Positions 44,280 through 57,705 of a stretch of 64,000 bases of DNA are shown piece after piece. Under the pieces are notes generated by a model. The model was not told where the DNA came from, made no database searches, and worked only from the letters and a program-made list of their open reading frames with translations. Position 1 is the stretch's first letter. Every line of letters starts with the position of its first letter. The DNA lies in the NCBI RefSeq assembly GCF_012931685.1, contig NZ_JABANC010000002.1:496001-560000 (forward strand). Direction: 5' to 3'. This DNA comes from Hanstruepera ponticola. GTDB lineage: Bacteria; Bacteroidota; Bacteroidia; Flavobacteriales; Flavobacteriaceae. The position numbers were made by a program, and so were the translations under genes.

Positions 44280-44302
44280 AATAATGCCCTATTTTAAGCG
44301 CG

Positions 44303-44310
44303 CAAAGGTA
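44303..44310 (-). promoter_or_regulatory. Putative -7 promoter box for bipA and downstream glycan genes
   Basis: The minus strand reads TACCTTTG followed by C, an exact TAnnTTTG match 24 nt upstream of the bipA ATG. No other good promoter is seen before wzx in the minus-strand run, where gaps are under 40 bp. Confidence 0.6.
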
Positions 44311-44496
44311 CGTTATATTTTAACAACTATTATAAATTATAGTTAATTATATGTTACAATCAATATAACACATACGATTTATAATTATCTTTCGTTTAAG
44401 TATTATTAGTAAATAGCCATTACTAACCAACTTCATAACCACCAAAGGCGCTTTACTCATGTTAAATTACATGTTTAACCCTTAAAAATGTAAAAA

Positions 44497-44856
44497 ATGA
44501 AATTGATTAGTAAATATTCTAAATTCATCCCATATCTTTATTATATAGCTGTAATTGCCTATTGGTTTACAGATGTAAATAGAAGCGATGGTCTTACTGC
44601 ATATCCCATTTTATTATTTAGCATACCTTTTCTTTGGCAATTAATTAAACCAAATAAGCAACTCAATTTCTCACTAGGAATTGTATTTGTGTGCTTGTCA
44701 TCCTATCTAATTCTCGCTTATTTATCTGATTTATTCAATATTATTGATTTTTCGGCATCAACTAGAACCTTCATTATTTATGGCGGTCTCTTTGTGTTTA
44801 CCAATTTTTTAATGGCGCTTTGGATGATTAGAAATAGCATTAAAAAAGCGTTTTAA
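44497..44856 (+). CDS. Hypothetical four-helix membrane protein
   Basis: A 119-residue integral membrane protein with four helices (FIPYLYYIAVIAYWFT, TAYPILLFSIPFLW, LNFSLGIVFVCLSSYLILAY and FIIYGGLFVFTNFLMALWM). It is not similar to anything I recognise. It ends 34 bp before kdsA and may share a regulatory context, but the kdsA promoter box lies between them. The 217-bp region upstream (44280-44496) holds the bipA promoter and no other gene I can support. Confidence 0.65.
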   Translation: MKLISKYSKFIPYLYYIAVIAYWFTDVNRSDGLTAYPILLFSIPFLWQLIKPNKQLNFSLGIVFVCLSSYLILAYLSDLFNIIDFSASTRTFIIYGGLFVFTNFLMALWMIRNSIKKAF

Positions 44857-44862
44857 TTTAAC

Positions 44863-44870
44863 TATCTTTG
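44863..44870 (+). promoter_or_regulatory. Putative -7 promoter box for kdsA
   Basis: TATCTTTG, an exact TAnnTTTG match, 20 nt before the kdsA ATG. The predicted start site then falls within the palindrome at 44872-44889. A -33 TTG is not obvious. Confidence 0.6.
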
Positions 44871-44871
44871 T

Positions 44872-44889
44872 AGCTTAAATTTTTAAGCT
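44872..44889 (+). promoter_or_regulatory. Palindrome in the kdsA leader
   Basis: AGCTTAAA at 44872-44879 and TTTAAGCT at 44882-44889 are perfect 8-bp inverted arms with a 2-nt spacer, ending one base before the kdsA ATG. As DNA this could bind a regulator; as RNA it would form a hairpin covering the ribosome-binding region. Confidence 0.5.
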
Positions 44890-44890
44890 C

Positions 44891-45712
44891 ATGAATTTAA
44901 GAGACGTTCCGAAGTTAATGCATACAAATAGTAATAACTTCTTTTTATTAGCAGGACCTTGTGCAATTGAAGGTGAAGATATGGCTTTGCGCATTGCTGA
45001 AAAGATTATTGCTATTACCAACGAATTACACATTCCATTTGTATTTAAAGGCAGTTTTAAGAAAGCCAATCGTAGTCGTATAGATAGTTTTACTGGAATA
45101 GGTGATGAAAAAGCTTTAAAAATTTTACGTAAAGTTTCTGAAACCTTTGATGTACCAACAGTTACAGATATTCATGAAGTATCTGATGCTAAAATGGCTG
45201 CCGAATATGTAGATGTGCTTCAAATCCCAGCATTCTTGGTCCGTCAAACAGATTTAGTAGTTGCGGCTGCTGAAACAGGCAAAGTAGTTAACCTAAAGAA
45301 AGGACAATTTATGAGTCCAGAAGCTATGAAACATGCCGTACAGAAAGTCAAAGATTCTGGTAGCGATAAAGCTTGGATAACCGATAGAGGAACGATGTTT
45401 GGCTACCAAGATATGATAGTTGATTTTCGTGGTATTCCAACCATGCGACAATACGCACCAACAATATTAGATGTTACTCACTCATTACAACAACCTAACC
45501 AATCGGTTGGTGTAACAGGCGGAAGACCTGATATGATTGAAACTATTGCGCGAGCTGGTGTTGTAAATCATGTTGATGGTTTATTCATAGAAACCCATTT
45601 TGATCCTGCCAATGCTAAAAGTGATGGCGCCAACATGTTACATTTAGACAATCTAGAAGGTTTACTCTCTAATTTAGTGGCTATTAGAAAAACAATAAAC
45701 AGCTTGAAATAA
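44891..45712 (+). CDS. kdsA: 3-deoxy-8-phosphooctulonate (KDO-8-P) synthase, metal-dependent type
   Basis: A 273-residue TIM-barrel synthase condensing phosphoenolpyruvate with arabinose-5-phosphate, the first committed step of lipopolysaccharide KDO synthesis. Motifs seen are LLAGPCAIEGED, KGSFKKANRSR, FLVRQTDLV, DVTHSLQQ and FIETHFDPANAKSDG. The cysteine in AGPCAIE (Cys24) marks the metal-dependent class, since metal-independent enzymes have Asn there; the other ligands (His in DVTH, Glu in FIETH, Asp in KSDG) are present. The start codon follows a promoter box and a palindrome. The neighbouring GNAT gene starts 9 bp downstream. Confidence 0.95.
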   Translation: MNLRDVPKLMHTNSNNFFLLAGPCAIEGEDMALRIAEKIIAITNELHIPFVFKGSFKKANRSRIDSFTGIGDEKALKILRKVSETFDVPTVTDIHEVSDAKMAAEYVDVLQIPAFLVRQTDLVVAAAETGKVVNLKKGQFMSPEAMKHAVQKVKDSGSDKAWITDRGTMFGYQDMIVDFRGIPTMRQYAPTILDVTHSLQQPNQSVGVTGGRPDMIETIARAGVVNHVDGLFIETHFDPANAKSDGANMLHLDNLEGLLSNLVAIRKTINSLK

Positions 45713-45721
45713 GTCTATTCT

Positions 45722-46189
45722 ATGGATATTGAAATTCGCCAAGCAACAATTGAAGATGTTCCAGAGATAACTACACTATTTAGGGATACTGTTCGCGAAG
45801 TGAATTCAAAAGATTATTCAGATAAGCAGATTCAAACCTGGTCTGCTGGAGCCAATGATACTGAAAAATGGGAAGAAAGAGTTAACAGATTCTATTTTTT
45901 AGTTGCTGAAACTAATGACACCATTGTCGGTTTTGCCTATTTAAAAAACGGCAACTATTTTGATGGTCTGTTCGTTCATAAAGACTATCAACGTCAAGGT
46001 ATTGCTTCAAAATTATTACGTATTATAGAATCAAAAGTTATGATGGATGGTTTCGATGAAATAAAATCTGATGTGAGTATTACAGCATTACCCTTTTTTG
46101 AAGACCATTACTACGATGTTATTAAAAAGCAAAAGAAAGTATTGAAAGGCATGTCTTTTGAGAATTACATTGTTTCAAAACAACTTTAA
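45722..46189 (+). CDS. GNAT family N-acetyltransferase
   Basis: A 155-residue GNAT protein. The acetyl-CoA loop is seen in LFVHKDYQRQGIASKLLRI (about residues 83-101), and the substrate side has SAGANDTEKWEERVNRFYF, resembling flavobacterial aminoglycoside-like or YafP-type GNATs. It follows kdsA by 9 bp and may be co-transcribed; a link to LPS is not shown. It ends convergently with the DUF1801 gene (4-bp overlap of stops). Confidence 0.82.
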   Translation: MDIEIRQATIEDVPEITTLFRDTVREVNSKDYSDKQIQTWSAGANDTEKWEERVNRFYFLVAETNDTIVGFAYLKNGNYFDGLFVHKDYQRQGIASKLLRIIESKVMMDGFDEIKSDVSITALPFFEDHYYDVIKKQKKVLKGMSFENYIVSKQL

Positions 46190-46563
46190 ATAAACCAAGC
46201 CTTTTTACTCTGCTCCAATTGCTTTGCTGCTGCCTGCAGCAATTTAACAAAACGCAATTCATCTAAATCTTCAATGCTTTTTAATTGAATAGAGCGCACT
46301 TGTTTTCGGTTATTATAATCCTGTAACTCCGGAAAGTCATTTTCCAATAAAATACCTTGAACAAAAGCCACATCTACAAAATCAGTTCCTTTTAAAACAT
46401 TCAAATATATCATAGGCTTTTTCCCCATGTTATAAAACGGAATTTTATAGCTATAGCGTTCTTGAATATTAGGCAAAGTCTTCAAAATTACCTGTCTTAC
46501 GTACAGCATAATAGATTGCAATGGCTCTTGTTGTTCCAAAAAATAAACATCAACTGGTTTCAT
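46186..46563 (-). CDS. DUF1801 / YdhG-like domain protein
   Basis: A 125-residue small protein: QSIMLYVRQVILKTLPNIQERYSYKIPFYNMGKKPMIYLNVLK resembles the opening of DUF1801/YdhG-like proteins, in which the YKIPFY and I-YLN strands form an alpha/beta fold of the CyaY-like superfamily. Function is unknown. It converges on the GNAT gene and diverges from the DUF6090 array, with 108 bp between, where the array's promoter should lie. Confidence 0.75.
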   Translation of the reverse strand: MKPVDVYFLEQQEPLQSIMLYVRQVILKTLPNIQERYSYKIPFYNMGKKPMIYLNVLKGTDFVDVAFVQGILLENDFPELQDYNNRKQVRSIQLKSIEDLDELRFVKLLQAAAKQLEQSKKAWFI

Positions 46564-46671: not shown

Positions 46672-47730
46672 ATGCTCAAATTCTTTCGTCGTACCAGGCA
46701 ACATCTTCTTGCCGATAACAAAACAGGTAAATACATTAAATACGCCATTGGTGAAATAATTCTTGTAGTCATTGGAATTCTCATTGCATTACAAGTCAAT
46801 AATTGGAACACTGAAAGACAATTAGAACAAACTGGACGTAAATTGTTGAAAAATATTCAAAAAGATCTTTTAACAGATATAGAAAGTGCTACAAATATTT
46901 TAGAAACCTACGTAATAAAGGATTCGTTGGCACGATTAGTTGTCAATAATAAATTCACAATATCTGATTATCAAAATAGTATATACGGACCAGAAGGCAC
47001 CTATTTCATGTATTGGTATGACAACTTCGTAATCAATAAAGAAGCTTTTTTAAAGTTTAAAGACTTCGTGAAAAACTTGGATGATTCATTTATTAGCTTT
47101 CAGGACTCATTAGATGAACTCTACATTACTCAAGGTAATTATATAGACAAGTTCAATCAACGTATAAGCACAACAGTATATAAAAATTTAGACTACCTCG
47201 CCAAGAGTAAAACATGGTATCACGAATGGCAATATGGAAGCGACACTGGAAACCATGATGAAAGCCATTTGTTTTTTTTAGAAGACCCTATATATAAAAA
47301 CCAAGTTGCTAATTACATTAACGATTATAAAAACCTTAATAGAGGTGCACAAACCTTCAGAGTACAGGCTGTATCACTCTACAAAAAGATAAGCGATGTG
47401 TTAAATGAAACTCCAGAAGACAACGAATTACTTAAGTTACAAATCAGTCAAGAGCATCAACTTGATCATTATTTAGGAAACTATAAATCCGATAGCGAAT
47501 CTATAGATATGACAAGAATTATATTAACAAACAACTATTTACAAAGACAGGATTCAGACGGTCAAACTACTAGGATGTACAGACATTCGAACACCTCGTT
47601 TTTCATGTTTAAAACCAATGAAGTTGAAGTTGTAAAATTTAATTTATACAGCGACCCAAATGAGACAAGTATTAAGATTATGGCAAAACACAAGTATCTA
47701 AACTATAAAAAGGTGAATACTAATGATTAA
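46672..47730 (+). CDS. DUF6090-like paralogue 1, with extra C-terminal beta domain
   Basis: First of twelve tandem paralogues. It has the family N-terminus in altered form (MLKFFRRTRQHLLADNKTGK; helix about residues 28-43), then a divergent coiled region lacking the central SG-x-ND-S-L-K motif of the later copies. Unlike them it ends with an added domain from about residue 260: LDHYLGNYKSDSE, RIILTNNYLQRQ, SNTSFFMFKTNEVEVVKFN. This reads like a DUF3471/lipocalin-like beta domain, familiar from the ends of periplasmic beta-lactamase-like proteins. It overlaps copy 2 by 8 bp (ATGATTAA). Membrane-anchored, periplasmic domain; function unknown. Confidence 0.85.
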   Translation: MLKFFRRTRQHLLADNKTGKYIKYAIGEIILVVIGILIALQVNNWNTERQLEQTGRKLLKNIQKDLLTDIESATNILETYVIKDSLARLVVNNKFTISDYQNSIYGPEGTYFMYWYDNFVINKEAFLKFKDFVKNLDDSFISFQDSLDELYITQGNYIDKFNQRISTTVYKNLDYLAKSKTWYHEWQYGSDTGNHDESHLFFLEDPIYKNQVANYINDYKNLNRGAQTFRVQAVSLYKKISDVLNETPEDNELLKLQISQEHQLDHYLGNYKSDSESIDMTRIILTNNYLQRQDSDGQTTRMYRHSNTSFFMFKTNEVEVVKFNLYSDPNETSIKIMAKHKYLNYKKVNTND

Positions 47731-48529
47731 ATTCTTCCGAAAAATACGCTACAACCTCATGGAACAAAATAAAACAGGCAAGTACTTTAAATACGCCATT
47801 GGCGAAATTATTCTTGTAGTCATTGGGATTTTGATTGCATTGCAGATTAATAATTGGAATGAACAGCGAAATAAAAATTCACTTGAAAAACAATATATAA
47901 TTAGACTAATAGAAGATCTAAAAGAAGAAGAAGCTTTGGTTAAAGCTGTTATTAATTATTCTAATCAGATTCTACATCATGCAAAAAATGCCATAAGCTT
48001 ATTTGAAGATCCACAAAAAGAAATTACTAACCCATCACGTAGCTTAATAGACATGTATCAAGCCAGTCAATTACAAGACCCTAACTCTATAAAATCAACT
48101 TATTTAGAATTGATTGCATCTGGGCAAATAAATCTTATTAAGAAAGACAGCTTAAAAACCGCCTTAATAAGACATTATGAAGTGGAATGGTCAAAAAACA
48201 AATTATTTGAAATGAATAATGACTACAGAAAAAATTTGAGAAGTAAGATGCCAAACTTTATACAGGAAAAAATTCGTGAAAAATGCGATGACATCTATTA
48301 TAAAGTACGAAACAGCATAGAGGCACGATTACCAGAAAATTGCGAGGTGGATATACCAAATGATGAAGCTGTTATAGCTATAGAATTACTTCGGAATGAC
48401 ACCTCATTAAAAAAAGACCTTCGGTTTTTAATTGGAAATGAAGGTGCTAAAAAATTCCTTTTAGAAACCCACTTAACTCAATTACAAAGACTCATTCAAG
48501 ACCTAGAAACCACTGTTAATCATGATTAA
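47723..48529 (+). CDS. DUF6090-like paralogue 2
   Basis: 268 residues. Constant region residues 1-48 (helix IILVVIGILIALQINNW at 29-45), preceded by a basic cytosolic start. The variable predicted-periplasmic part has a helical pattern and the central motif at 133-148 (SGQINLIKKDSLKTAL). Two cysteines at about 184 and 205 could form a disulfide; most paralogues lack such a pair. Start and stop both lie in the 8-nt ATGATTAA overlap with its neighbours. Compared with copies 3 and 4 the first 17 codons are nearly identical at DNA level. Confidence 0.88.
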   Translation: MIKFFRKIRYNLMEQNKTGKYFKYAIGEIILVVIGILIALQINNWNEQRNKNSLEKQYIIRLIEDLKEEEALVKAVINYSNQILHHAKNAISLFEDPQKEITNPSRSLIDMYQASQLQDPNSIKSTYLELIASGQINLIKKDSLKTALIRHYEVEWSKNKLFEMNNDYRKNLRSKMPNFIQEKIREKCDDIYYKVRNSIEARLPENCEVDIPNDEAVIAIELLRNDTSLKKDLRFLIGNEGAKKFLLETHLTQLQRLIQDLETTVNHD

Positions 48530-49214
48530 ATTCTTCAGAAAAATACGCTACAACCTCATGGAACAAAACAAAACTGGCAAATACTTTAAATATGCTATTG
48601 GTGAGATTATTCTTGTAGTCATTGGGATTTTGATTGCACTACAGATAAATAATTGGAATGAGACTAGAAAACATGCCATAGCAGAAAAAGAATTTTTTAA
48701 AAGCATAACAAATGATCTTAATCAAGATCTAAAATTTATAAACTATGTTCAAAGGTATTTAAAACCTAAAACAGATGCTTATAACTTATTAAATAGTAAG
48801 TACTCAACAGATTATGAAAACCATAAAACACAAATAGATTCTTTAATGTCTATTTATCTTTTTTCTGGACAACGTACATTCTACCCTGTCTCTGGAGCTT
48901 TCAAATCTGCAATAGCGGGTAATGAAATCAATACCTACAGTCAAAAAAGTAATATCCAAAGTATTATAAAACTCTATGGTTCTAATTATGATAGACTTAT
49001 TGACAATGGTAAAATTGTAGATGAAAGATGGAGTCATTTAAGTAAAAAATATATTCATTACAGAAGAACAAATGCCTTTAACGATGTAAATAATATTACA
49101 TATACCAAAATGTTAGACGACTTCCACTTTCATTATATTCAATTAAACTGGTACAATAAAATTTTAGATGAAACTAAAATAGAAGTGAATCAATTATTAA
49201 AAAAATTACAATGA
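48522..49214 (+). CDS. DUF6090-like paralogue 3
   Basis: 230 residues, the shortest copy. N-terminal region as in copies 2 and 4 (MIKFFRKIRYNLMEQNKTGK), single helix at about 29-45. The central motif is degenerate: AGNEINTYSQKSNIQSI at 132-148, lacking the usual ND-S-L. The end is KLLKKLQ-like and the stop overlaps the next start by 4 bp (ATGA), a different junction from most others. The tail is more basic than in other members. Confidence 0.86.
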   Translation: MIKFFRKIRYNLMEQNKTGKYFKYAIGEIILVVIGILIALQINNWNETRKHAIAEKEFFKSITNDLNQDLKFINYVQRYLKPKTDAYNLLNSKYSTDYENHKTQIDSLMSIYLFSGQRTFYPVSGAFKSAIAGNEINTYSQKSNIQSIIKLYGSNYDRLIDNGKIVDERWSHLSKKYIHYRRTNAFNDVNNITYTKMLDDFHFHYIQLNWYNKILDETKIEVNQLLKKLQ

Positions 49215-49993
49215 TTAAATTCTTCAGGAAAATACGCTACAACCTCATGGAACAAAATAAAACAGGCAAGTACTTTAAATACGCAATAGGCGAAATTGTC
49301 CTAGTAGTTATTGGTATTCTAATTGCCCTTCAAATTAATAATTGGAATGAAGGCAGAAAACTAGAAAAAAGTAAAAGCCAACTTATGTTAGCTTTAAAAA
49401 GCGAATTGGTCAAGAATAAAAAGGAATTGGATAATTATAGTTTAGAAATACATGAAAGCAACTCAAGATTCAATAAAGTGCTTCTTTATTCGGTAGGAGA
49501 TTATACCATTCCTAATGATAGTCTAAAGTTTTATCTATCTGAAATGATTTATGGCAGAACATTATCCTTATTGAGTTCCGTTCAAGAAGAAGCTATTAAT
49601 TCTGGTAAATTTGAAATGTTAAGTGATAGCTTAAAGCAAAACCTTTCTGTACTAAAAGATTATACCAATTCTAGAAAAGTGATTAGTGATAGAAGTACTG
49701 CCATGCTAAATGTTGATATTGATAACAGGATAGTTAATTTAATGGCTAGATTAAATATGCTTCCTGTAATTCCTGATGAATTTTTAAGTCATCCATTAAT
49801 TCCAACACATCCTGATTTTTTATTAAGCAATATGGAGTTATCATCTCTAGTCAAAAATCCTGACACCTACCTAACATTAAATAAAATATATTTAATGTAT
49901 GCAGCCGATGAAGTTTGGGTTAAGTATGGCCTTGTTAGACTAACAGACAAAACAATTGCATTAATCGACAAAGAATTGAATACAAATGATTAA
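49211..49993 (+). CDS. DUF6090-like paralogue 4
   Basis: 260 residues. Constant segment as in copy 2, but the helix reads IVLVVIGILIALQ. Central motif SGKFEMLSDSLKQNL at 131-145 matches the shared pattern. The region is proline-poor and rich in charged heptads, suggesting two or more long helices. Its C-terminus NTND comes from the ATGATTAA junction with copy 5. Confidence 0.87.
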   Translation: MIKFFRKIRYNLMEQNKTGKYFKYAIGEIVLVVIGILIALQINNWNEGRKLEKSKSQLMLALKSELVKNKKELDNYSLEIHESNSRFNKVLLYSVGDYTIPNDSLKFYLSEMIYGRTLSLLSSVQEEAINSGKFEMLSDSLKQNLSVLKDYTNSRKVISDRSTAMLNVDIDNRIVNLMARLNMLPVIPDEFLSHPLIPTHPDFLLSNMELSSLVKNPDTYLTLNKIYLMYAADEVWVKYGLVRLTDKTIALIDKELNTND

Positions 49994-50735
49994 ATTCTTT
50001 AGAAATATCAGAAAAAAACTTCTTAACGAAGGTAAAACTAGTAGGTATTTTAAATATGCTATTGGTGAAATTATTCTAGTAGTAATTGGGATTCTAATTG
50101 CATTACAAATCAATAACTGGAATGAGAACAGAAAGGCTCAGAAACTAGCTAAAGAAAATTATATAAATTTACTAACCTCACTAGAACAGGACCTTATTAA
50201 GGTTAAGAAAATTAGTAATTACAACAAAAAAAGCCTAGTTGCATTACGTAAAATAATTCCAACCAAGATTAATGATAGCCTATTTGAACTAAATGATGAC
50301 GATTTAAACACGTTTTTAATAGAACTTGGGTTTTCTGTAAGAAGTTTTATCCCACAAACAGGAGTGTATAATTTACTAACCTCAAATAACGGTTTTGATT
50401 TAATGAAATCTGACAAAATAAAGTCATCATTAATTCATCTTTATGATTACCAATATAAAGCCTATGAAGATCTAGATAAGCAAGTAGACAATAAATATCA
50501 CAGCCAACTGGGCACGGTTTTAAGACAAAAAATAGTTCTGATTATTGAATATAACCCAAATCTTACAATTACGCACAGAGCAACCATGAACCGTTTTGAA
50601 GAGCATTTTGAAGAATTGGCTTTGGCCTCAAGAGATCTCTACCCGATGATAGCATTTAATACAAACAACCTAGTTAAAATAGAAGAATCTATAACTAAAC
50701 TGATTCCTTTGATTAATGTAGAGATAAATAAATAA
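49986..50735 (+). CDS. DUF6090-like paralogue 5
   Basis: 249 residues. The N-terminus differs in a block (MIKFFRNIRKKLLNEGKTSR) that closely matches copy 6 (NIRKSLLAEGKTSK), so 5 and 6 form a subfamily. Central motif is NNGFDLMKSDKIKSSLI (134-150), a conservative variant. A 21-bp gap, without overlap, follows before copy 6. C-terminus NVEINK does not come from the overlap junction. Confidence 0.86.
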   Translation: MIKFFRNIRKKLLNEGKTSRYFKYAIGEIILVVIGILIALQINNWNENRKAQKLAKENYINLLTSLEQDLIKVKKISNYNKKSLVALRKIIPTKINDSLFELNDDDLNTFLIELGFSVRSFIPQTGVYNLLTSNNGFDLMKSDKIKSSLIHLYDYQYKAYEDLDKQVDNKYHSQLGTVLRQKIVLIIEYNPNLTITHRATMNRFEEHFEELALASRDLYPMIAFNTNNLVKIEESITKLIPLINVEINK

Positions 50736-50756
50736 TAAAAATCAAGATTCAAATTA

Positions 50757-51497
50757 ATGATTAAATTCTTCAGAAATATCCGAAAATCACTTCTTGCCGA
50801 AGGTAAAACAAGTAAATACCTAAAATATGCCATTGGTGAAATTATCCTTGTGGTTATAGGTATTCTAATTGCCTTACAGATTAACACCTGGAATCAAGAA
50901 CATAATAACAGAAAGTTGGAAAAAGAAATGATGGCCAGTATCCATTCCGAATTCAAAAACAACCTGACAAAAATTGAAACCAGCATTGTTCAATATTACA
51001 AAACCGAGCAAGCCATTCGGTTTTTAATGTCTAAAATAAAAGCGTCTTCAGAAGAGTTGAAAACTGAAAACATAGACAGTCTCCTTGCTGCAGCAGTAGA
51101 TGTCTATGAATACCATCCTACACAAAATATCTTGACTGAAATATTATCGACAGGGAGTTTAAATTTAATCAAGAATGATTCCTTAAAATACCAATTACTC
51201 CATTGGTCTGGCGAATTCAACGAATTAAATGAAGCCTGGGAAACCCTAGACGACTTTAACCAACATATGGTTATTCCTTACTTAACTAAAAAAGCTTCAA
51301 TGAAAAATATTGACAAATATTCCTTAATGGCTTGGGAGGAAAAATCAAAATTCGAGATTGACTATGAAAGTGTTTTCAATGATTTGGAATTTGAAAACCA
51401 CTTGGACAATCTTGGATGGGCTGTTGTAAACTACAGAATCGTATTAAAACGTTTAGAAAAATTAATTAAACAAATCATTGAGCTAACCCATGATTAA
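50757..51497 (+). CDS. DUF6090-like paralogue 6
   Basis: 246 residues. EGKTSK subfamily start; the helix end reads QINTWNQ instead of NNWNE. Central motif TGSLNLIKNDSLKYQLLHW at 132-150 is one of the clearest. Tail contains SLMAWEEKSKFEIDYESVF and ends ELTHD, created by the ATGATTAA overlap with copy 7. It lies after a 21-bp spacer. Confidence 0.87.
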   Translation: MIKFFRNIRKSLLAEGKTSKYLKYAIGEIILVVIGILIALQINTWNQEHNNRKLEKEMMASIHSEFKNNLTKIETSIVQYYKTEQAIRFLMSKIKASSEELKTENIDSLLAAAVDVYEYHPTQNILTEILSTGSLNLIKNDSLKYQLLHWSGEFNELNEAWETLDDFNQHMVIPYLTKKASMKNIDKYSLMAWEEKSKFEIDYESVFNDLEFENHLDNLGWAVVNYRIVLKRLEKLIKQIIELTHD

Positions 51498-52287
51498 ATT
51501 CTTCCGTCATATCCGTCAATCACTAATTATGAAAAATAAAACCAGCCCGAATGACTCGGTCGGGCGAACAGGACGTTACTTCAAGTATGCCATTGGCGAA
51601 ATCATTCTTGTAGTTATAGGTATTCTCATTGCCTTACAGATTAACAATTGGAATGCTCTCAAAAAACAAGAAAACAATAATATATTCTTAAGTAAACGGC
51701 TACTTGTAGAAACTGATAAAAACATCATTGAACTAGAAAAAGAAATCATTTCAATAGAAAAATCAATAAACTCATTGCTAATGATGTTACACCTTTCAGG
51801 TGAAGACTACCATGAAGTTGATCCCAAAAAAGTTGATAGTTTAATTTATAATATTTTAGGCACACCAACCTATTATTTTAACGATGCTGTTTTAAACGAA
51901 GCTTTATCTACTGGTCAAGTGTCTAGTTTTGAAAATGACAGTTTAAAAAATATCATTTACAGTATTCCAACGACTATGGAAACAGTCAAATTTCGCGAGC
52001 AAAACATTGAACAAGACACCAATACCAATTTAATTCCTTTTCTTTATAATTATATCTCTTTAAGGAATGTGGACTACCAATTCTCTAACCTTGATAACCT
52101 AGGAAAAAGCCAAGTAAAAGAAATTGATAATCGTCAAATACTCTCCATGTTATTTTGGGAAAATGAAATTGACAACCTCCATTTTATATATAACACATTG
52201 CTAGAAGAAAGCTACAGGAAACTTGATAGAGACTTGAAGAGTTTAAAGATATTATTGGAGCAACAAATAAACCGCAATCATGATTAA
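51490..52287 (+). CDS. DUF6090-like paralogue 7 with in-frame palindromic insertion
   Basis: 265 residues. The usual NKTGKYFKY becomes NKTSPNDSVGRTGRYFKY: nine extra residues (19-27) encoded by a GC-rich palindrome (51545-51565) that keeps the frame. Central motif TGQVSSFENDSLKNII at 141-156. Its stop is followed inside an ATGATTAA overlap by a start codon that leads only into a decayed copy (see remnant at 52280). Confidence 0.86.
   Translation: MIKFFRHIRQSLIMKNKTSPNDSVGRTGRYFKYAIGEIILVVIGILIALQINNWNALKKQENNNIFLSKRLLVETDKNIIELEKEIISIEKSINSLLMMLHLSGEDYHEVDPKKVDSLIYNILGTPTYYFNDAVLNEALSTGQVSSFENDSLKNIIYSIPTTMETVKFREQNIEQDTNTNLIPFLYNYISLRNVDYQFSNLDNLGKSQVKEIDNRQILSMLFWENEIDNLHFIYNTLLEESYRKLDRDLKSLKILLEQQINRNHD
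51545..51565 (+). repeat. In-frame palindrome in paralogue 7
   Basis: GCCCGA at 51545-51550 and TCGGGC at 51560-51565 are inverted arms around ATGACTCGG. The GC-rich block stands out in AT-rich coding sequence and matches the insertions at 53248 and 55577 in sequence and position. Confidence 0.75.
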
Positions 52288-52395
52288 ATTTTTCCATTAT
52301 CGAAAAATAATTTTGCGTTTGCAAAATCAAAGGTCTTGTAGACCTTTGTTGGAAATAGCCGCTTGCGGAAAGCTCAAAATTAAAATGTGTGAAAT
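52280..52395 (+). pseudogene. Remnant of a DUF6090-like gene start overrun by hairpins
   Basis: After copy 7 the standard junction ATGATTAAATTTTTCC begins another MIKFF start, but the frame then leaves the family (HYRKIILRLQ) and runs into unrelated sequence. Three hairpins sit back to back: ATTTTGC/GCAAAAT (52310-52327), CAAAGGTCT/AGACCTTTG (52328-52348, 9-bp stem), CCGC/GCGG (52359-52368). The remaining paralogue body is missing. Copy 8 starts at 52396 with no overlap. This looks like a copy deleted or split by an inserted intergenic element. Confidence 0.65.
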
Positions 52396-53160
52396 ATGAT
52401 TCAGTTTTTCAGACACATACGTAAATCACTCCTCATGGAAAATAAAGCAGGCAAGTACCTAAAATATGCCATTGGTGAAATCATTCTAGTCGTTATTGGT
52501 ATATTAATAGCCTTACAAATCAACAACTGGAATGAGACAAGACAAATCAGAAAAGTAGAAAAAGAAATTCTGAATGTATTACTTGAAGATTTAAATTCTG
52601 CAAAAGCGTTTTCAGCGCAATACATTAAAAGTGAGCAAAGCTACCTGAATGTTATTGAAACAATACTGCATAATGATTCAATAAAAACAATCATAAACAG
52701 TAATGATAAAACAACACAATATTTCAACAAAGCATTTTGGGACTTCGAAATAAAAATTCCTGTAATTAATACATATTCCGATTTAAAAAATGCAGGAAAA
52801 ATTGCCATTGTTCAAAACGATTCTATTCGAGACAGGTTAAGCATTTTAGAGGCAAATATTTACAATTTAGATAAGTTAATCCAAGATAGGATGAATGTTC
52901 ATCAAATTAGGATTGATGAAATATGTGTGGAAAATGTAAATTTTCTTCAACTTTTAAAATTTAAAATACCTGACTATAATATTTCATTAGGTTCTCAAAA
53001 TGACTATATCGAAATCATGTCACAACCAAAAGTTCGTAACTTAATGGGGATTAAGGCCGTTCTGACAAATGAGGCATTGGGATACAGGGAAGATCTACAC
53101 AATGAAATAGTATCTATTATTAAATTGATAAAGACTGAACTAAATGACAGTCAAAATTGA
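52396..53160 (+). CDS. DUF6090-like paralogue 8
   Basis: 254 residues. The start MIQFFRHIRKSLLMENKAGK differs at the third residue (K to Q). Central motif AGKIAIVQNDSIRDRLS at 133-149. The first gene after the hairpin remnant; it therefore lacks the usual overlap with an upstream stop, and a 32-bp spacer follows it. Codon choice in the constant part differs more from copies 2-4. Confidence 0.87.
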   Translation: MIQFFRHIRKSLLMENKAGKYLKYAIGEIILVVIGILIALQINNWNETRQIRKVEKEILNVLLEDLNSAKAFSAQYIKSEQSYLNVIETILHNDSIKTIINSNDKTTQYFNKAFWDFEIKIPVINTYSDLKNAGKIAIVQNDSIRDRLSILEANIYNLDKLIQDRMNVHQIRIDEICVENVNFLQLLKFKIPDYNISLGSQNDYIEIMSQPKVRNLMGIKAVLTNEALGYREDLHNEIVSIIKLIKTELNDSQN

Positions 53161-53192
53161 AAAAGTATAGTTAACACAAGTATAATCAACCC

Positions 53193-54011
53193 ATGATAAA
53201 ATTCTTTAGAAAAATACGCTACAACCTAATGAGTGAGAACAAAACCAGCCCGAATGACTCGGGCGGGCGGGCGGGCAAGTACTTTAAATATGCTATTGGC
53301 GAAATCATTCTTGTAGTTATAGGAATTCTAATTGCACTACAGATTAATAATTGGAATGAAAACAGAAAAGACCGTTTAGAAGAACAAGAACTTTTAGCTC
53401 AATTACAATCTGAATTTTTAAGTAACCTAGATCAGTTAGACCAAAAAATAGCATTACGAAATAATATGCTCAAAGCCTCAGCAAAACTACTTAACTACAT
53501 AGATTATCCAGAATCACTAGAAACTGATAGTATTCTCAATCATGTAGGATATACTGTAATTGCTCCAACATTTGATCCTATTGTAAACGACATTATTAGC
53601 TCTGGAAGAATACAGTTACTAGAAAATAGCCAATTAAAAGAAAAATTATCACGCTGGACTAGTGAATTAGTTCAAGTTACTGAAGAAGAACAAGTTTGGT
53701 TAAATTATCGGTCAAACTACTATACACCCCTTTTGATAGAGTATGGTTTATATAGAAATCTCATTAATCGATACTGGAAATCCAATATTATTGGGGCTTT
53801 CCATTTAGACAAAGGCACTCAAACTGAATTCGATTTAGGACCATCAAAAAAAGAGATTAACATCACAGAGTTTATAAATGACTCAAGATTTGAAAATCAC
53901 ATCGCACAATGTGCTTCGTTTGCTAAACTCACCAATAGTCAAGCATTGAGTTTACGACAACGCATTGTTGAAATTTTAAATATTATTGAGCAAGAACTAA
54001 ATAATAACTAA
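53193..54011 (+). CDS. DUF6090-like paralogue 9 with in-frame palindromic insertion
   Basis: 272 residues. NKTSPNDSGGRAGKYFKY carries the nine-residue insertion (53248-53276 in DNA, including four tandem GGGC units). The variable part matches copy 10 over its whole length (LDQKIALRN versus LDEKIYMRD; NYIDYPE versus NYIDHPE; PTFDPI in both), so 9 and 10 are the closest sister pair. Central motif SGRIQLLENSQLKEKLS at 137-153. One base overlaps copy 10 (TAATG). Confidence 0.87.
   Translation: MIKFFRKIRYNLMSENKTSPNDSGGRAGKYFKYAIGEIILVVIGILIALQINNWNENRKDRLEEQELLAQLQSEFLSNLDQLDQKIALRNNMLKASAKLLNYIDYPESLETDSILNHVGYTVIAPTFDPIVNDIISSGRIQLLENSQLKEKLSRWTSELVQVTEEEQVWLNYRSNYYTPLLIEYGLYRNLINRYWKSNIIGAFHLDKGTQTEFDLGPSKKEINITEFINDSRFENHIAQCASFAKLTNSQALSLRQRIVEILNIIEQELNNN
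53248..53276 (+). repeat. In-frame palindrome in paralogue 9, extended by GGGC repeats
   Basis: GCCCGA at 53248-53253, loop ATGAC, TCGGGC at 53259-53264, then further GGGC units to 53276. The tandem GGGC tract is absent from the copy-7 insertion and could vary by slippage; the units are 4 bp, so a change of one unit would shift the frame. Confidence 0.75.
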
Positions 54012-54802
54012 TGATAAAATTTTTCCGTAAAATACGCTTAAACCTCATGGAACAAAATAAAACCAGGAAATACTTTAAGTATGCCATTGGCGAAATAATT
54101 CTTGTAGTTATAGGCATTCTTATTGCATTGCAGATAAACAATTGGAATGAAAATAGAAAGGCTGAATACGAAGAGCAAAAAATTCTGAAACAATTAAAAA
54201 ATGAATATCAAAAAAATTTAAATCAATTAGATGAAAAAATATATATGCGTGATAAAATGACTTTGGCATCTGCAGGTATTCTTAACTATATTGATCATCC
54301 GGAAAAATATAATAGAGACAGTTTAATATACTACTCGTTCAGACTTACTCAAGAACCTACCTTTGATCCTATTCAAAATGATCTTGTGGTTTCTGGCAAA
54401 TTAAGAAGTATTCAAAACGACAGTTTAATAATTTTACTTTCAAACTGGACATCGGATGTATATCAGGTTCAAGAATTAGAAACAAGTTGGCAAGAGATGC
54501 GTAGTAAATATGTTATGCCTGTTTTTATGACTCAAGACTTTGCAAGAAACACAGCTTCATACCTACTAAAAAATGGATATACTCCAGATCATGCTCTTGA
54601 CCGCAGTATATCTTTAGTTTATAATATTGAAATGACCGACACCGACTTGCTTGAAAAGTTGCAAGAAAACACCATCGCTTTTCAAAGTGCAGCTAGCACA
54701 TGCATACTTTATAATAAAATAATAAACGGCCAATCCATGGTGCTTCGAAAACAAATTCTAAAAATATTAGCCCTCTTAAATTCTGAAATTCACCATGATT
54801 AA
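54011..54802 (+). CDS. DUF6090-like paralogue 10
   Basis: 263 residues. At the insertion point it reads NKTRKYFKY (DNA AAAACCAGGAAATAC at 54059-54073). This shares the AAAACCAG left boundary with the palindrome-bearing copies, yet lacks the palindrome, so it may be a scar of loss. Central motif SGKLRSIQNDSLIILLS at 128-144. Closest to copy 9. Ends HHD through an ATGATTAA overlap with copy 11. Confidence 0.87.
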   Translation: MIKFFRKIRLNLMEQNKTRKYFKYAIGEIILVVIGILIALQINNWNENRKAEYEEQKILKQLKNEYQKNLNQLDEKIYMRDKMTLASAGILNYIDHPEKYNRDSLIYYSFRLTQEPTFDPIQNDLVVSGKLRSIQNDSLIILLSNWTSDVYQVQELETSWQEMRSKYVMPVFMTQDFARNTASYLLKNGYTPDHALDRSISLVYNIEMTDTDLLEKLQENTIAFQSAASTCILYNKIINGQSMVLRKQILKILALLNSEIHHD

Positions 54803-55529
54803 ATTCTTTCAAAAAATACGCCACTCTCTTATGGAACAGAATAAAACTGGCAAATACTTTAAATACGCCATTGGGGAAATTATTCTTGTGGTTATTGGTA
54901 TTCTCATTGCATTGCAGATTAATAATTGGAATGAAAACAGAATAAAATCCAATAAAGAAACTGCTATTTTAGCCACTATTCATAAAGAATTTAAGAAAAA
55001 TAAAAAACAGTTGGACTCGGTAGTTAATCAACATCTTATGGCAAGAAATAATTGTGCAAAAATTATCAATTTATTTCCAATAAAATCTAAACCAGAACCT
55101 GCTATTTTAGACTCTCTGCAACATCAATTGTTTTGGTCCTATGGTGGTACCACTTTTAATCCATCTCAAACAAGTATTAATGCACTAGCTAGCACATCGT
55201 CTTTTGATATTATTAAAAACAATACCTTGCGTGATCATTTAATTTCATGGAATGATTTAATTACAGATTATCAAGAAGAAGAATTAAGAGTTTCGGAACA
55301 TATGGTTCAACAATATGATCCATATATGTCTAAACATTTTGACTGGAATTTTAATTTCAACGATGAACGCAATGATTTTAATGCACTTCAAACATTGGAG
55401 TTTGAATATTTAGTCAGAAATCAATATTATTTAATTGATCAAATATTGACTGCCACTGGTGAACTTCAAAAAGTACAAAACACTTTGGTTAAGATTATTA
55501 ATCTATCAAAACCCAAAAACCATGATTAA
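54795..55529 (+). CDS. DUF6090-like paralogue 11
   Basis: 244 residues. Start MIKFFQKIRHSLMEQNKTGK. Central motif TSSFDIIKNNTLRDHLIS at 134-151. A single cysteine at residue 87 of the variable part is unusual in this set. Ends KNHD at the ATGATTAA overlap into copy 12. An ATG in this frame within the C-terminus of copy 11 opens a longer reading frame for copy 12, but the family start is the one chosen there. Confidence 0.87.
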   Translation: MIKFFQKIRHSLMEQNKTGKYFKYAIGEIILVVIGILIALQINNWNENRIKSNKETAILATIHKEFKKNKKQLDSVVNQHLMARNNCAKIINLFPIKSKPEPAILDSLQHQLFWSYGGTTFNPSQTSINALASTSSFDIIKNNTLRDHLISWNDLITDYQEEELRVSEHMVQQYDPYMSKHFDWNFNFNDERNDFNALQTLEFEYLVRNQYYLIDQILTATGELQKVQNTLVKIINLSKPKNHD

Positions 55530-56292
55530 GTTTTTTAGGAAAATACGTCAAAATCTTATTATGGAAAATAAAACCAGCCCGAATGACTCGGTCGGGCGGG
55601 CAGGCAAATATTTCAAATATGCCATTGGTGAGATTATACTTGTGGTCTTAGGTATTCTCATTGCGCTTCAAATTAATAATTGGAATGAAGAAAAAAAGAA
55701 CCACCAGTTAAAAGTCTATTACATGAATTCCATTAAAAACGACTTAAAAAAAGATACTATAGATATCAATCGTATAACTAGAATTCAACGTACCGATAAC
55801 CAGGCTTCAGATCAGTACTTAAAGCGTATTCTGGCACCAAATAGCACCATAGACACGATAATTAACATAGCAAAAAATGAGTATAATTTTAAGTTTGCTG
55901 TTAAACGGGAGTATGCCAACAACACTTTTAAAACATTAATTTCAACAGGTAACATTGAACTTTTAGATAAAGAACTTACTCAAAAATTAATGGATTTAAA
56001 TAGCCTACAACTCGATCAGCTGGAACGCTTTTATAGCCATATGGGTTATTTTGAAAGAATAATGTCTGACTATCTTCAAGATTATCCCATTTATAGTGAT
56101 ATACCCGAAAATTCAATAGTTGAAAAAATTTTATGGGAAGATGTCAACGAAAAGGAACTCGTAGGCAGTTTTACTTCAATTCTCGGTTTACGTAAATTTA
56201 TGTTCGAGAATTCTATTAGCGGACATTTAAAGGTTAAAGAACAGTCTGCTGAAGTACTCAACCTAATTGATACATTGTTGGAAAAAGAATGA
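55522..56292 (+). CDS. DUF6090-like paralogue 12 with in-frame palindromic insertion
   Basis: 256 residues starting at the family MIKFF (55522), although the reading frame opens 63 bp earlier. Insertion NKTSPNDSVGRAGKYFKY as in copy 7 (palindrome at 55577-55597). The helix reads LVVLGILIALQ. The central motif is STGNIELLDKELTQKL at 141-156, degenerate in the ND-S-L part. This is the last copy; the sequence right after its stop forms an 8-bp stem (56295-56320). Confidence 0.87.
   Translation: MIKFFRKIRQNLIMENKTSPNDSVGRAGKYFKYAIGEIILVVLGILIALQINNWNEEKKNHQLKVYYMNSIKNDLKKDTIDINRITRIQRTDNQASDQYLKRILAPNSTIDTIINIAKNEYNFKFAVKREYANNTFKTLISTGNIELLDKELTQKLMDLNSLQLDQLERFYSHMGYFERIMSDYLQDYPIYSDIPENSIVEKILWEDVNEKELVGSFTSILGLRKFMFENSISGHLKVKEQSAEVLNLIDTLLEKE
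55577..55597 (+). repeat. In-frame palindrome in paralogue 12
   Basis: GCCCGA at 55577-55582 and TCGGGC at 55592-55597 around ATGACTCGG, almost identical to the copy-7 insertion (both with the extra T before CGGGC). Confidence 0.75.
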
Positions 56293-56452: not shown

Positions 56453-57061
56453 ATGGAATCAAAAGATTATCTAAAAGACATTAGTGAGATTAAAAACCTC
56501 ATGAATAAATCGTCTCGCTTCATATCACTATCTGGACTTTCAGGAATATTAGCAGGTATTTATGCACTTGTAGGCGCTGCAACAGCTCATTGGCTAGTAA
56601 CAACTTATAGTTATGGCACCTTAACTTTAGATGGTTGGGTATTTAGAACCTGTGTGTTAATTTTAGGTTTGGTGGCATTCTTTAGTATAGTCACTGGAAT
56701 ACTACTTACCACACGCAAAGCAAAAAAACACGGTGAGAAAATTTGGGACACTACTTCAAAGCGTTTAGTTTTTAACTTCTTAATTCCATTAGCAGTTGGC
56801 GGTATTTATATTCTTATTATTCTCAATCAACAAAAATATGGGCAAACAGCTGCATTAATGTTACTTTTCTATGGGTTAGCATTAATTAATGCTTCGAAAT
56901 ACAGTATTGGCGATATTCGATATTTAGGACTTATTCAAATAGTTTTGGGACTAATTTGTGCGCTTTTTCCAGGTTATGGCTTCTGGCTTTGGACACTTGG
57001 TTTTGGCGTTATGCACATTATTTATGGCACTTGGATGCATTTTAAATACGATAAACAATAA
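56453..57061 (+). CDS. Hypothetical multi-pass membrane protein of the creD locus
   Basis: A 202-residue protein with a charged cytosolic start (ESKDYLKDISEIKNLMNKSSRF) and six helices, including SGLSGILAGIYALVGAATAH and LIQIVLGLICALFPGYGFW. I do not know its activity; similar proteins recur beside short winged-helix regulators and creD in flavobacteria. It is the first gene after the operator at 56428. The gene ends 23 bp before the 96-residue membrane gene. Confidence 0.7.
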   Translation: MESKDYLKDISEIKNLMNKSSRFISLSGLSGILAGIYALVGAATAHWLVTTYSYGTLTLDGWVFRTCVLILGLVAFFSIVTGILLTTRKAKKHGEKIWDTTSKRLVFNFLIPLAVGGIYILIILNQQKYGQTAALMLLFYGLALINASKYSIGDIRYLGLIQIVLGLICALFPGYGFWLWTLGFGVMHIIYGTWMHFKYDKQ

Positions 57062-57084
57062 ATTAATAACTAAAATTTAAAATT

Positions 57085-57375
57085 ATGTTGACACAAAACA
57101 AGCGATTGATTACAATCATGCTCTGGGTTGGACTCCTATTATTAATTCCATTCATAGGGATGCAATTTTCTAATGACGTTAATTGGACAGTTTCCGATTT
57201 TTTAGTTGCTGGCGTTCTATTATTAGGAGCAGGTTTAACAATTGAAATAGTTATGAGAACTATCAAAAAGAAACAGACTAGATTATTATTAATTTTAATA
57301 ATTGCAGCAATACTATTATTAACTTGGGCCGAATTGGCAGTTGGAGTATTTGGAACACCTTTCGCTGGCAGTTAA
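57085..57375 (+). CDS. Hypothetical small membrane protein, 96 residues
   Basis: Three helices (LITIMLWVGLLLLIPFIGM, FLVAGVLLLGAGLTIEIVM and LLILIIAAILLLTWAELA) and a short C-terminus FGTPFAGS. It sits between the 202-residue membrane protein and the winged-helix regulator, so it likely belongs to the same transcript. Function unknown; comparable proteins with an N-terminal basic segment and GMQFSNDVNW occur next to the same regulator type. Confidence 0.65.
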   Translation: MLTQNKRLITIMLWVGLLLLIPFIGMQFSNDVNWTVSDFLVAGVLLLGAGLTIEIVMRTIKKKQTRLLLILIIAAILLLTWAELAVGVFGTPFAGS

Positions 57376-57411
57376 GTAATCACTAAAATGTCCTCCATAG
57401 CAGGACACCTT

Positions 57412-57705
57412 ATGAGCATAATAACTAACATAAATAAAGTTTTTGATCATCGCATTCGATTAGGCATTATGTCTATTCTAATGGTTAATGAGTATGCCGA
57501 TTTTAACACACTCAAAGAATTATTAGATGTTACAGATGGCAACCTAGCAAGCCACACCAAAGCTTTAGAGAAAGCGGAATACATTTTGGTTGAAAAACAA
57601 TTTATAGGCAGAAAACCAAATACACGTTACGCAACTACTCAATTAGGTCGTTCAGAATTCAAAAAACACATAGAAGCCCTAGAAAAATTAATAAATAAAC
57701 AATAA
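57412..57705 (+). CDS. Winged-helix transcriptional regulator
   Basis: A 97-residue one-domain winged-helix protein: NINKVFDHRIRLGIMSILMV, LKELLDVTDGNLASHTKALE (the recognition helix region) and YILVEKQFIGRKPNTRYATT (the wing), resembling MarR/ArsR-like regulators found with creD in Bacteroidota. The ATG at 57412 is preferred over the one at 57388 because the domain begins there and an AGGA sits 6 nt ahead. The likely operator is the palindrome at 56428 and 57747, so it would control its own operon and creD. No sensor domain is visible; the signal could come through the upstream membrane proteins. Confidence 0.82.
   Translation: MSIITNINKVFDHRIRLGIMSILMVNEYADFNTLKELLDVTDGNLASHTKALEKAEYILVEKQFIGRKPNTRYATTQLGRSEFKKHIEALEKLINKQ

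Follow-up and report, generated by a model that had tools for sequence, protein, structure and literature searches.

A tandem DUF6090 array in Hanstruepera ponticola appears to join a conserved membrane anchor to exchangeable periplasmic heads and may act as an immunity-like repertoire

Why should a bacterium keep twelve related and highly divergent copies of a small membrane-protein gene side by side? The question is raised by a 64,000-nucleotide stretch of the Hanstruepera ponticola genome (contig NZ_JABANC010000002.1, positions 496,001 to 560,000; hereafter the window), in which the interval 46672-56292 is occupied by a tandem array of genes of the DUF6090 family. A preliminary description of this DNA had reported twelve co-oriented, intact open reading frames (ORFs), and these are indeed present: they encode proteins of 230-352 residues, and coding sequence makes up 98.3% of the interval. 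The family name given there has now been confirmed by a search in which all twelve proteins score above the curated gathering cut-off of the Pfam model (PF19578; 23.5 bits). The Pfam entry names no function for DUF6090, and the term is absent from the literature searched. It is highly probable, as we argue below, that these genes combine a common membrane anchor with interchangeable heads and that recombination has brought the combinations about.

All of the proteins follow the same plan: an anchor of about 46 residues with one membrane helix, followed by a divergent helical head on what is predicted to be the periplasmic side. Likeness is concentrated in these first 46 or so residues, and over their full length the other array proteins are only 21-29% identical to that of gene 1. 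The single-pass character proposed earlier holds, with one hydrophobic segment in each of the twelve proteins, preceded by 6-8 positively and 1-2 negatively charged residues. By the positive-inside rule, such positive residues ahead of a single segment would leave the N-terminus inside and the C-terminus outside, so that the bulk of each protein would lie beyond the inner membrane. Judging from the ORF coordinates of the interval, neighbouring genes overlap at eight of the eleven junctions (by 8 bases at six of these, by 4 at another and by 1 at the last), the others having gaps of 21, 108 and 32 bases; over the five genomes of the genus 58 of 106 junctions overlap, 34 of them by exactly 8 bases. 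The twelve genes are probably co-expressed.

For comparison within the genus we used one genome per species: that of H. ponticola itself (G000) and four others (G001 to G004). Their 175 family matches yielded 169 full-length genes and 2 remnants, with 4 matches not recovered; anchor conservation, anchor clustering and the map of head types are based on 136 of the 169 genes, and the analyses of identity pairs, of the proportion of synonymous differences (pS) and of the solitary controls on all 169. The anchor is conserved as protein. Within the array its 26-codon core differs at 6.6% of first and second codon positions and at 46.6% of third positions, and among the genus genes synonymous codons at identical anchor residues mismatch at a rate of 0.52-0.54, as against 0.58 expected from codon usage. 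Nine residues (Y24, A25, G27, E28, L31, V32, G35, I36 and A39) are invariant in 136 of 136 genes, and over 109 relatives the entropy is lowest in the membrane helix (0.32 bits), higher in the cytoplasmic part (1.11) and highest in the head (2.5-3.0). Near-equilibrium synonymous sites combined with invariant residues argue that the protein sequence of the anchor has been kept by selection and not by recent copying of DNA; on these codon comparisons, the anchor amino acids are under purifying selection. Gene conversion as the cause of the likeness is ruled out by the same near-equilibrium, though the mismatch does fall slightly below expectation. The nearest anchor lies in the gene's own array for 21.4 genes (8.0 expected, standard deviation 2.9); for the genome as a whole there is no such clustering (33.9 against 31.0 expected, standard deviation 5.1).

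Within the arrays, anchor and head seem to have had separate histories. Between members of the genus, the synonymous divergence (dS) of genes flanking the arrays exceeds 1 in 27 of 28 comparisons, ranging up to saturation, with 0.80 in the remaining one. Seven pairs with close heads have head dS values of 0.06, 0.10, 0.22, 0.46, 0.47, 0.52 and 0.52, and the corresponding anchors, in estimates resting on about 46 codons, give 0.51, 0.91 and 2.28, with the other four saturated. Three of these pairs are gene 1 (46672..47730) with its counterpart in G004, H. flava (head 0.06, anchor 0.51), and, both in comparison with G001, gene 6 (50757..51497; head 0.10, anchor 0.91) and gene 7 (51490..52287; head 0.22, anchor 2.28). 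The head of gene 8 stands at 0.46-0.52 from those in G001, G002 and G003, and that of gene 4 at 0.52 from that in G003; in the remaining 12 of the 19 pairs the head dS exceeds 1 or has reached saturation. Three heads are 97-98% identical between species. Along genes 1, 6 and 7 the DNA identity jumps at a point inside the anchor or where the anchor ends, and genes 4 and 8 show a gentler rise; at the gene end the identity falls again. Genes 6 and 7 are neighbours, and the anchor of gene 7, flanked by two near-identical heads, is itself diverged. The opposite kind of mosaic is seen in G002_C7_127472 and G003_C16_98822, which are identical over 66 anchor bases and have heads with no detectable similarity.

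The 19 dS pairs and the 16 pairs in which breakpoints were located had been picked by hand, and they are backed by sets of all pairs over stated limits. Among the pairs with head pS below 0.5, anchor pS exceeds head pS in 37 of 38 (26 at p<0.01). Since such pairs share genes and are not independent, we also counted by head type: of 22 independent types, 21 have an anchor that has diverged further than the head (14 at p<0.01; Wilcoxon p = 7e-7). In a control that took heads at least 60% identical without selection on pS, the anchor had diverged further than the head in 49 of the 70 pairs from arrays, in 8 of the 12 mixed ones and in 1 of the 16 solitary ones, the last drawn from two ortholog groups. 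The best-fit breakpoint falls at codons 17-51 in 12 of the 16 hand-picked pairs and at codons 71-103 in the other 4, several with wide limits. Such a spread does not support site-specific recombination at a single point; lying mostly in the anchor block, the breakpoints would fit homologous recombination there. The decoupling of anchor and head histories in the arrays, to go by sequence comparison, finds its best explanation in homologous recombination inside the block that encodes the anchor. That block seems to have a second use as a handle for recombination, and heads appear to pass from one species to another.

The heads of a given genome are also strikingly non-redundant. Grouped at 45% identity, the 169 genes make up 97 head types, 59 of them represented once and three present in all five genomes. 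Head pairs at least 50% identical number 0 of 3189 within genomes and 111 of 11007 between genomes, and lowering the limit within genomes to 45% or 40% recovers one and three pairs, respectively. With no close pair among 3189, the arrays did not grow through recent duplication, and an expansion by recent tandem duplication is not supported; the label shuffles made on the head pairs likewise bear on whether recent duplicates are lacking and do not address selection for diversity. As to that selection, which the earlier account had proposed, the periplasmic part is indeed diverse, and the evidence for selection as such is indirect: among pairs preselected at 75% identity or more (pS <0.6), close heads look conserved, with a median ratio of non-synonymous to synonymous change (dN/dS) of 0.108, and genomes differ from one another by the exchange and retention of heads. 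Non-redundancy taken together with head exchange fits a repertoire.

The site itself is syntenic in all five genus genomes, the array lying between orf56453 and, as far as the stretches reach, a common set of upstream genes. Full-length array genes at the site number 12, 17, 12, 11 (plus a 44-residue remnant) and 5, so that the copy number is indeed variable, and in none of the five does a lone conserved copy stand in place of the array. Each of the five has a gene of head type T0 at the 3' end of its array or beside it; the order T2-T1-T0 is retained in G000, G001 and G003, with other genes interspersed in G000. Tandem, non-redundant, variable genes whose content differs among close relatives are what characterizes an orphan immunity array, and the DUF6090 arrays compared here show these features. 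The upstream flank (42480..46563) has a conserved gene order in G001, G003, G004 and, within its stretch, G002; we take its genes to encode a typA-like GTPase, a small membrane protein, a kdsA-like synthase, and GNAT-like and DUF1801-like proteins. In the downstream flank (56453..57705, + strand), presumably encoding two small membrane proteins and a small regulator-like protein, orf56453 is present in all five genomes and the next two genes in G002, G003 and G004, the G001 stretch stopping earlier. The orf56453 product has a single match per genome, with 86-93% identity in the four other species. A genome of another genus (G010), in which orf56453 is found at 78%, has no DUF6090 match.

With respect to the distribution of the family, the window array is one of several clusters that, together with single copies, account for 50 matches in the 3.18 Mb H. 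ponticola genome (Pfam's own model gives 48, of which 46 are above its cut-off). The four other genomes of the genus, apparently Hanstruepera too, have 38, 45, 30 and 12. Farther afield the presence is patchy, bearing out the earlier idea of a lineage-specific family: there are matches in 17 of 40 relatives (H. ponticola included) and in 91 of 149 genomes of the Flavobacteriaceae, one per genus, 87 of these above the cut-off. Copies per genome in that sample range from 1 to at least 21. Among named genomes, relatives are encoded in at least 567 candidate stretches; the 78 loci retained extend from Winogradskyella as far as Algoriphagus and Portibacter and hold as many as 11 anchor-motif ORFs, in stretches of up to 13 kb.

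Structure prediction agrees with the plan outlined above. The model of gene 10, built from a 109-row alignment, is all-helical (mean predicted local distance difference test, pLDDT, 94.7; predicted template modelling score, pTM, 0.85), with helices at 2-14, 18-95 (the membrane segment continuing into the head), 137-173 and 221-259 and smaller elements between them. The gene 1 model repeats this succession of helices with less confidence (mean pLDDT 67.2; 61-92 for blocks of the helical part, and below 50 for residues 252-352, an extra domain). Head positions such as D103, S128, G129, N136 and L139 are conserved in 82-94 of 108-109 relatives. Foldseek with the two models found no convincing relative among solved structures (best E 0.025), or among solved or viral structures taken together (best E 0.025-0.23), and the 109-row profile matched no Protein Data Bank sequence up to E 1.

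The nearest precedents known to us are the tandem immunity genes tipC and esaG, which recombine through conserved blocks (PMC9484751). In that account, tipC of the streptococcal type VII secretion system likewise occurs in tandem variable copies and encodes an outward-facing, membrane-bound immunity protein, with a conserved block near its start, a variable remainder and recombination between copies; it differs in sitting at a toxin locus (telC), in having a second conserved block at its end and in carrying a probable lipoprotein signal peptide where DUF6090 proteins have a membrane helix (PMC9484751). DUF6090 genes, on the other hand, are found at many loci, in Bacteroidota, and with no toxin recognised. 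The same source describes twelve tandem esaG copies in Staphylococcus aureus RN6390, with conserved blocks and mosaic-making recombination; esaG has three blocks, however, confers immunity to a nuclease, and its first copy lies beside the toxin gene esaD (PMC9484751), whereas DUF6090 proteins are membrane-anchored and have one 5' block. Recombination through a conserved block, as in both of these systems, is suggested for DUF6090 by the discordance between anchors and heads. The rAID clusters are similar in being arrays of divergent orphan immunity genes away from toxins, but they are recombinase-associated and the factors tested have SUKH domains, and DUF6090 proteins match no such Pfam domain; among the neighbour-cluster representatives viewed, no recombinase gene near the arrays was recognised by eye, the neighbours being annotated in part. 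Orphan immunity arrays are reportedly found in Vibrio cholerae as well. In the Bacteroidales, too, such arrays exist (PMC12247911). The DUF6090 array may work like the tipC and esaG arrays, a likeness of arrangement.

We therefore place an immunity-like bank first, on the precedent of the conserved blocks, and an array of sensors second. Its members are inner-membrane proteins that very probably combine a common anchor (cytoplasmic helix, loop and one membrane helix) with interchangeable helical heads in the periplasm. The genes would form a translationally coupled operon, with all of the heads displayed together, and the invariant anchor might dock a common partner or assemble the paralogues. 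Each head would bind and block a different incoming agent, perhaps a toxin, a bacteriocin or a phage factor acting in the periplasm, and a new head would be gained and kept while its target is around, much as in an orphan-immunity bank. That the head bank serves in immunity is a possibility to which we give somewhat less than an even chance, and the explanation as a whole, with anchor and interchangeable heads forming a non-redundant, immunity-like recognition bank in the periplasm, is in our judgement equally tentative.

Several observations weigh against this explanation. No recurrent partner gene was recognised when 539 neighbours were clustered (the largest cluster occurs at 8 of 103 loci), and no cognate toxin among the cluster representatives viewed. 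Nor does any Pfam family occur more than four times among 98 operon-linked neighbours, a set that excludes the syntenic loci of the other genus genomes, and of the 25 families listed, out of 87, none is one of toxins or of secretion. The VipB component of the type VI secretion system was not found in the H. ponticola genome, the control being positive in 1 of 14 genomes; the model may miss the Bacteroidota type. PADLOC, run like NCBIfam on ten of the twelve proteins, returned weak matches only (best LeoA, E 0.0019), and PHROGs gave no match for the 109 relatives. The conservation of close heads is unlike Bacteroides orphan immunity, which accumulates non-synonymous change (PMC12247911), and the anchor is stricter than a mere tether would need to be. 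Old paralogues inherited vertically would look just as non-redundant, and non-redundancy alone is thus no proof of selection for diversity. As for the decoupling, 8 of the 22 head types miss p<0.01 and one points the opposite way, and 21 of the 70 array pairs lack a more diverged anchor; choosing pairs by their similar heads favours more-diverged anchors, for which reason the solitary control matters, and its 16 pairs come from only two groups.

On the sensor reading, every head would respond to its own ligand or to its own signal from the envelope, and a single shared partner, membrane-bound or cytoplasmic, would be coupled to all the heads through the anchor they have in common. Nine positions invariant in every gene despite near-saturated synonymous sites suggest a specific common partner, the membrane helix runs on into the long head helix in the gene 10 model, and the low-confidence gene 1 model has a weak likeness in shape to the sensor domains of TorS and McpS (E 0.15-0.28). 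Such sensors seem unlikely all the same, because only about 23 residues lie inside, with no cytoplasmic output domain, and because adjoining genes provide no recurrent partner. Membrane sensors of the 4HB type have two membrane helices and a cytoplasmic output domain; with one hydrophobic segment and no second in any of the twelve proteins, the array does not fit that type. The common membrane helix, with its small residues G27, G35 and A39 and its polar E28, could also serve to bring the paralogues together as mixed oligomers of an envelope scaffold, in which the heads, with the single long helix 18-95 of gene 10, would be spacers or linkers; the movement of particular heads between species suggests instead that head identity matters, and we regard a scaffold as improbable. 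Slightly less improbable is a largely neutral accumulation, in which the anchor is the sole working part and repeat recombination shuffles tolerated head variants without selection for specificity. It would accord with the lack of any known phenotype and with the occurrence of remnants (43 and 44 residues) and of chimeras (an anchor-like start joined to a sulfatase); close heads, however, have a dN/dS of about 0.11, low enough to tell against it, and the intactness of all twelve window genes, the near-identity of three heads between species and the conserved head positions do so as well.

Polymorphic-type toxins, with a common trafficking N-terminus and a variable toxic C-terminus, are laid out in a similar way, with a constant first and a variable second part. 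Both modelled proteins, however, have one and the same helical order, all twelve match a single Pfam family, and the window genes leave no space between them for immunity genes, so that this idea has very little to recommend it. Surface-displayed subunits resembling type IV pilins come last. The hydrophobic segment following E28 recalls a pilin N-terminus, and there is one weak match to GspG (E 0.011), whose 15.8 bits fall far short of the cut-off of 88.85. Prepilins are cleaved at a motif with glycine at -1 and glutamate at +5; with E28 taken as +5, the -1 residue is K23, and a prepilin peptidase, present in 12 of 14 control genomes, is absent from that of H. ponticola. On these two grounds we rule out type IV pilins and pseudopilins as an explanation.

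Considering the array gene by gene (all on the + strand), gene 1 is a long form of 352 residues with an anchor block at about 46672-46809 and a head of type T11; its C-terminal extra part of some 100 residues, within 46672..47730, is DUF3471-like, below the cut-off. Gene 2 (47723..48529; 268 residues, T15) overlaps gene 1 by 8 bases, as gene 3 (48522..49214; 230 residues, T14), which has the best family score of the twelve at 63.8 bits, overlaps gene 2. Gene 4 (49211..49993; 260 residues, overlap 4) has head type T2 and begins the order T2-T1-T0 seen also in G001 and G003. The head of gene 5 (49986..50735; 249 residues, overlap 8) has no close copy in the compared loci, the best being 30% over half its length. 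Genes 6 (246 residues, T23) and 7 (265 residues, T28) were located above. Gene 8 (52396..53160; 254 residues, T3) has near copies in a different array of G001, G002 and G003, with a saturated anchor. There follow gene 9 (53193..54011; 272 residues, T9), gene 10 (54011..54802; 263 residues, T1), the one modelled with high confidence, gene 11 (54795..55529; 244 residues, T0) and gene 12 (55522..56292; 256 residues, T20), whose start we have corrected to the ATG at 55522, the GTG at 55459 being the longest-ORF start only. Longer members in other genera carry added C-terminal parts as well: a DUF6197 domain above the cut-off (35.5 bits) in L118:7836-9041, whose DUF6090 score is just under the cut-off, SusE/F-like parts below the cut-off in L139:3720-4811 and L102:8971-10038, and DUF3471-like parts, also below it.

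Some smaller sequence features accompany these genes. A 27-base palindromic insert lies in frame in the loop between the two helices of the anchor in genes 7, 9 and 12 (listed at 51545-51561, 53248-53264 and 55577-55593) and at G000:C8:121227; it is absent from the G001 copy of gene 7, and all four copies in the genome are in DUF6090 anchors with different head types, making it a tracer of recombination. The anchor loop is lengthened in 13 of 411 measured genes, nine of them in other genera and with other inserts, several palindromic by eye. Another palindrome, AAGGTCTNNNAGACCTTTG, occurs at three sites in the genome, each about 67 bases upstream of a DUF6090 start, and also upstream of a DUF6090 start in another genome of the genus (L061) and in Croceitalea (L080). 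Its window copy is inside a mini-ORF of 39 codons (52280..52399) that has an anchor-like start (MIKFF), overlaps the end of gene 7 and also the start of gene 8, at which it terminates; the other positions of the palindrome or mini-ORF are G000:C7:578160 and 579194, L056, L061 and L080. By a loose pattern, a mini-ORF of this kind accompanies 23 of 494 distinct genes, with a MIKFF-like beginning in 17. The remnants G000:C8:122880-123011 and G003:C7:1291384-1291518 (43 and 44 residues) contain little beyond the anchor and were likely left by recombination or truncation. In L145:3819-5597 an anchor-like start is joined in frame to a sulfatase, the only domain that Pfam detects, as if the 5' block had been joined onto an unrelated gene. 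Finally, a gene for a 117-residue protein, presumably resembling GIY-YIG, lies inside the DUF6090 arrays of two genomes (L050:8916-9269 and L056:6303-6656); its cluster spans four loci, and elsewhere PF01541 matches 2 of the 98 operon-linked neighbours.

In its broadest form, which we put forward as a tentative proposal and hold to be rather less than evenly likely, the anchor block, frozen by selection, would in many Bacteroidota be a working anchor and at the same time a handle for recombination, serving an open pool of periplasmic specificity domains that is shared between species. The array would then belong to a stand-alone repertoire of envelope immunity or recognition, a new class with up to about 50 heads per cell and no toxin gene of its own. 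If this is true, some 50 genes of a 3.2 Mb genome would make up a repertoire unnamed in the literature searched, whose family occurs in 91 of the 149 sampled genera of its taxonomic family, and they would provide a clear case of a short coding block under selection at the protein level that also permits in-frame swaps of heads. For work on envelope defence in marine Bacteroidota, the analysis points to particular genes, to residues of the anchor and to heads that have moved recently.

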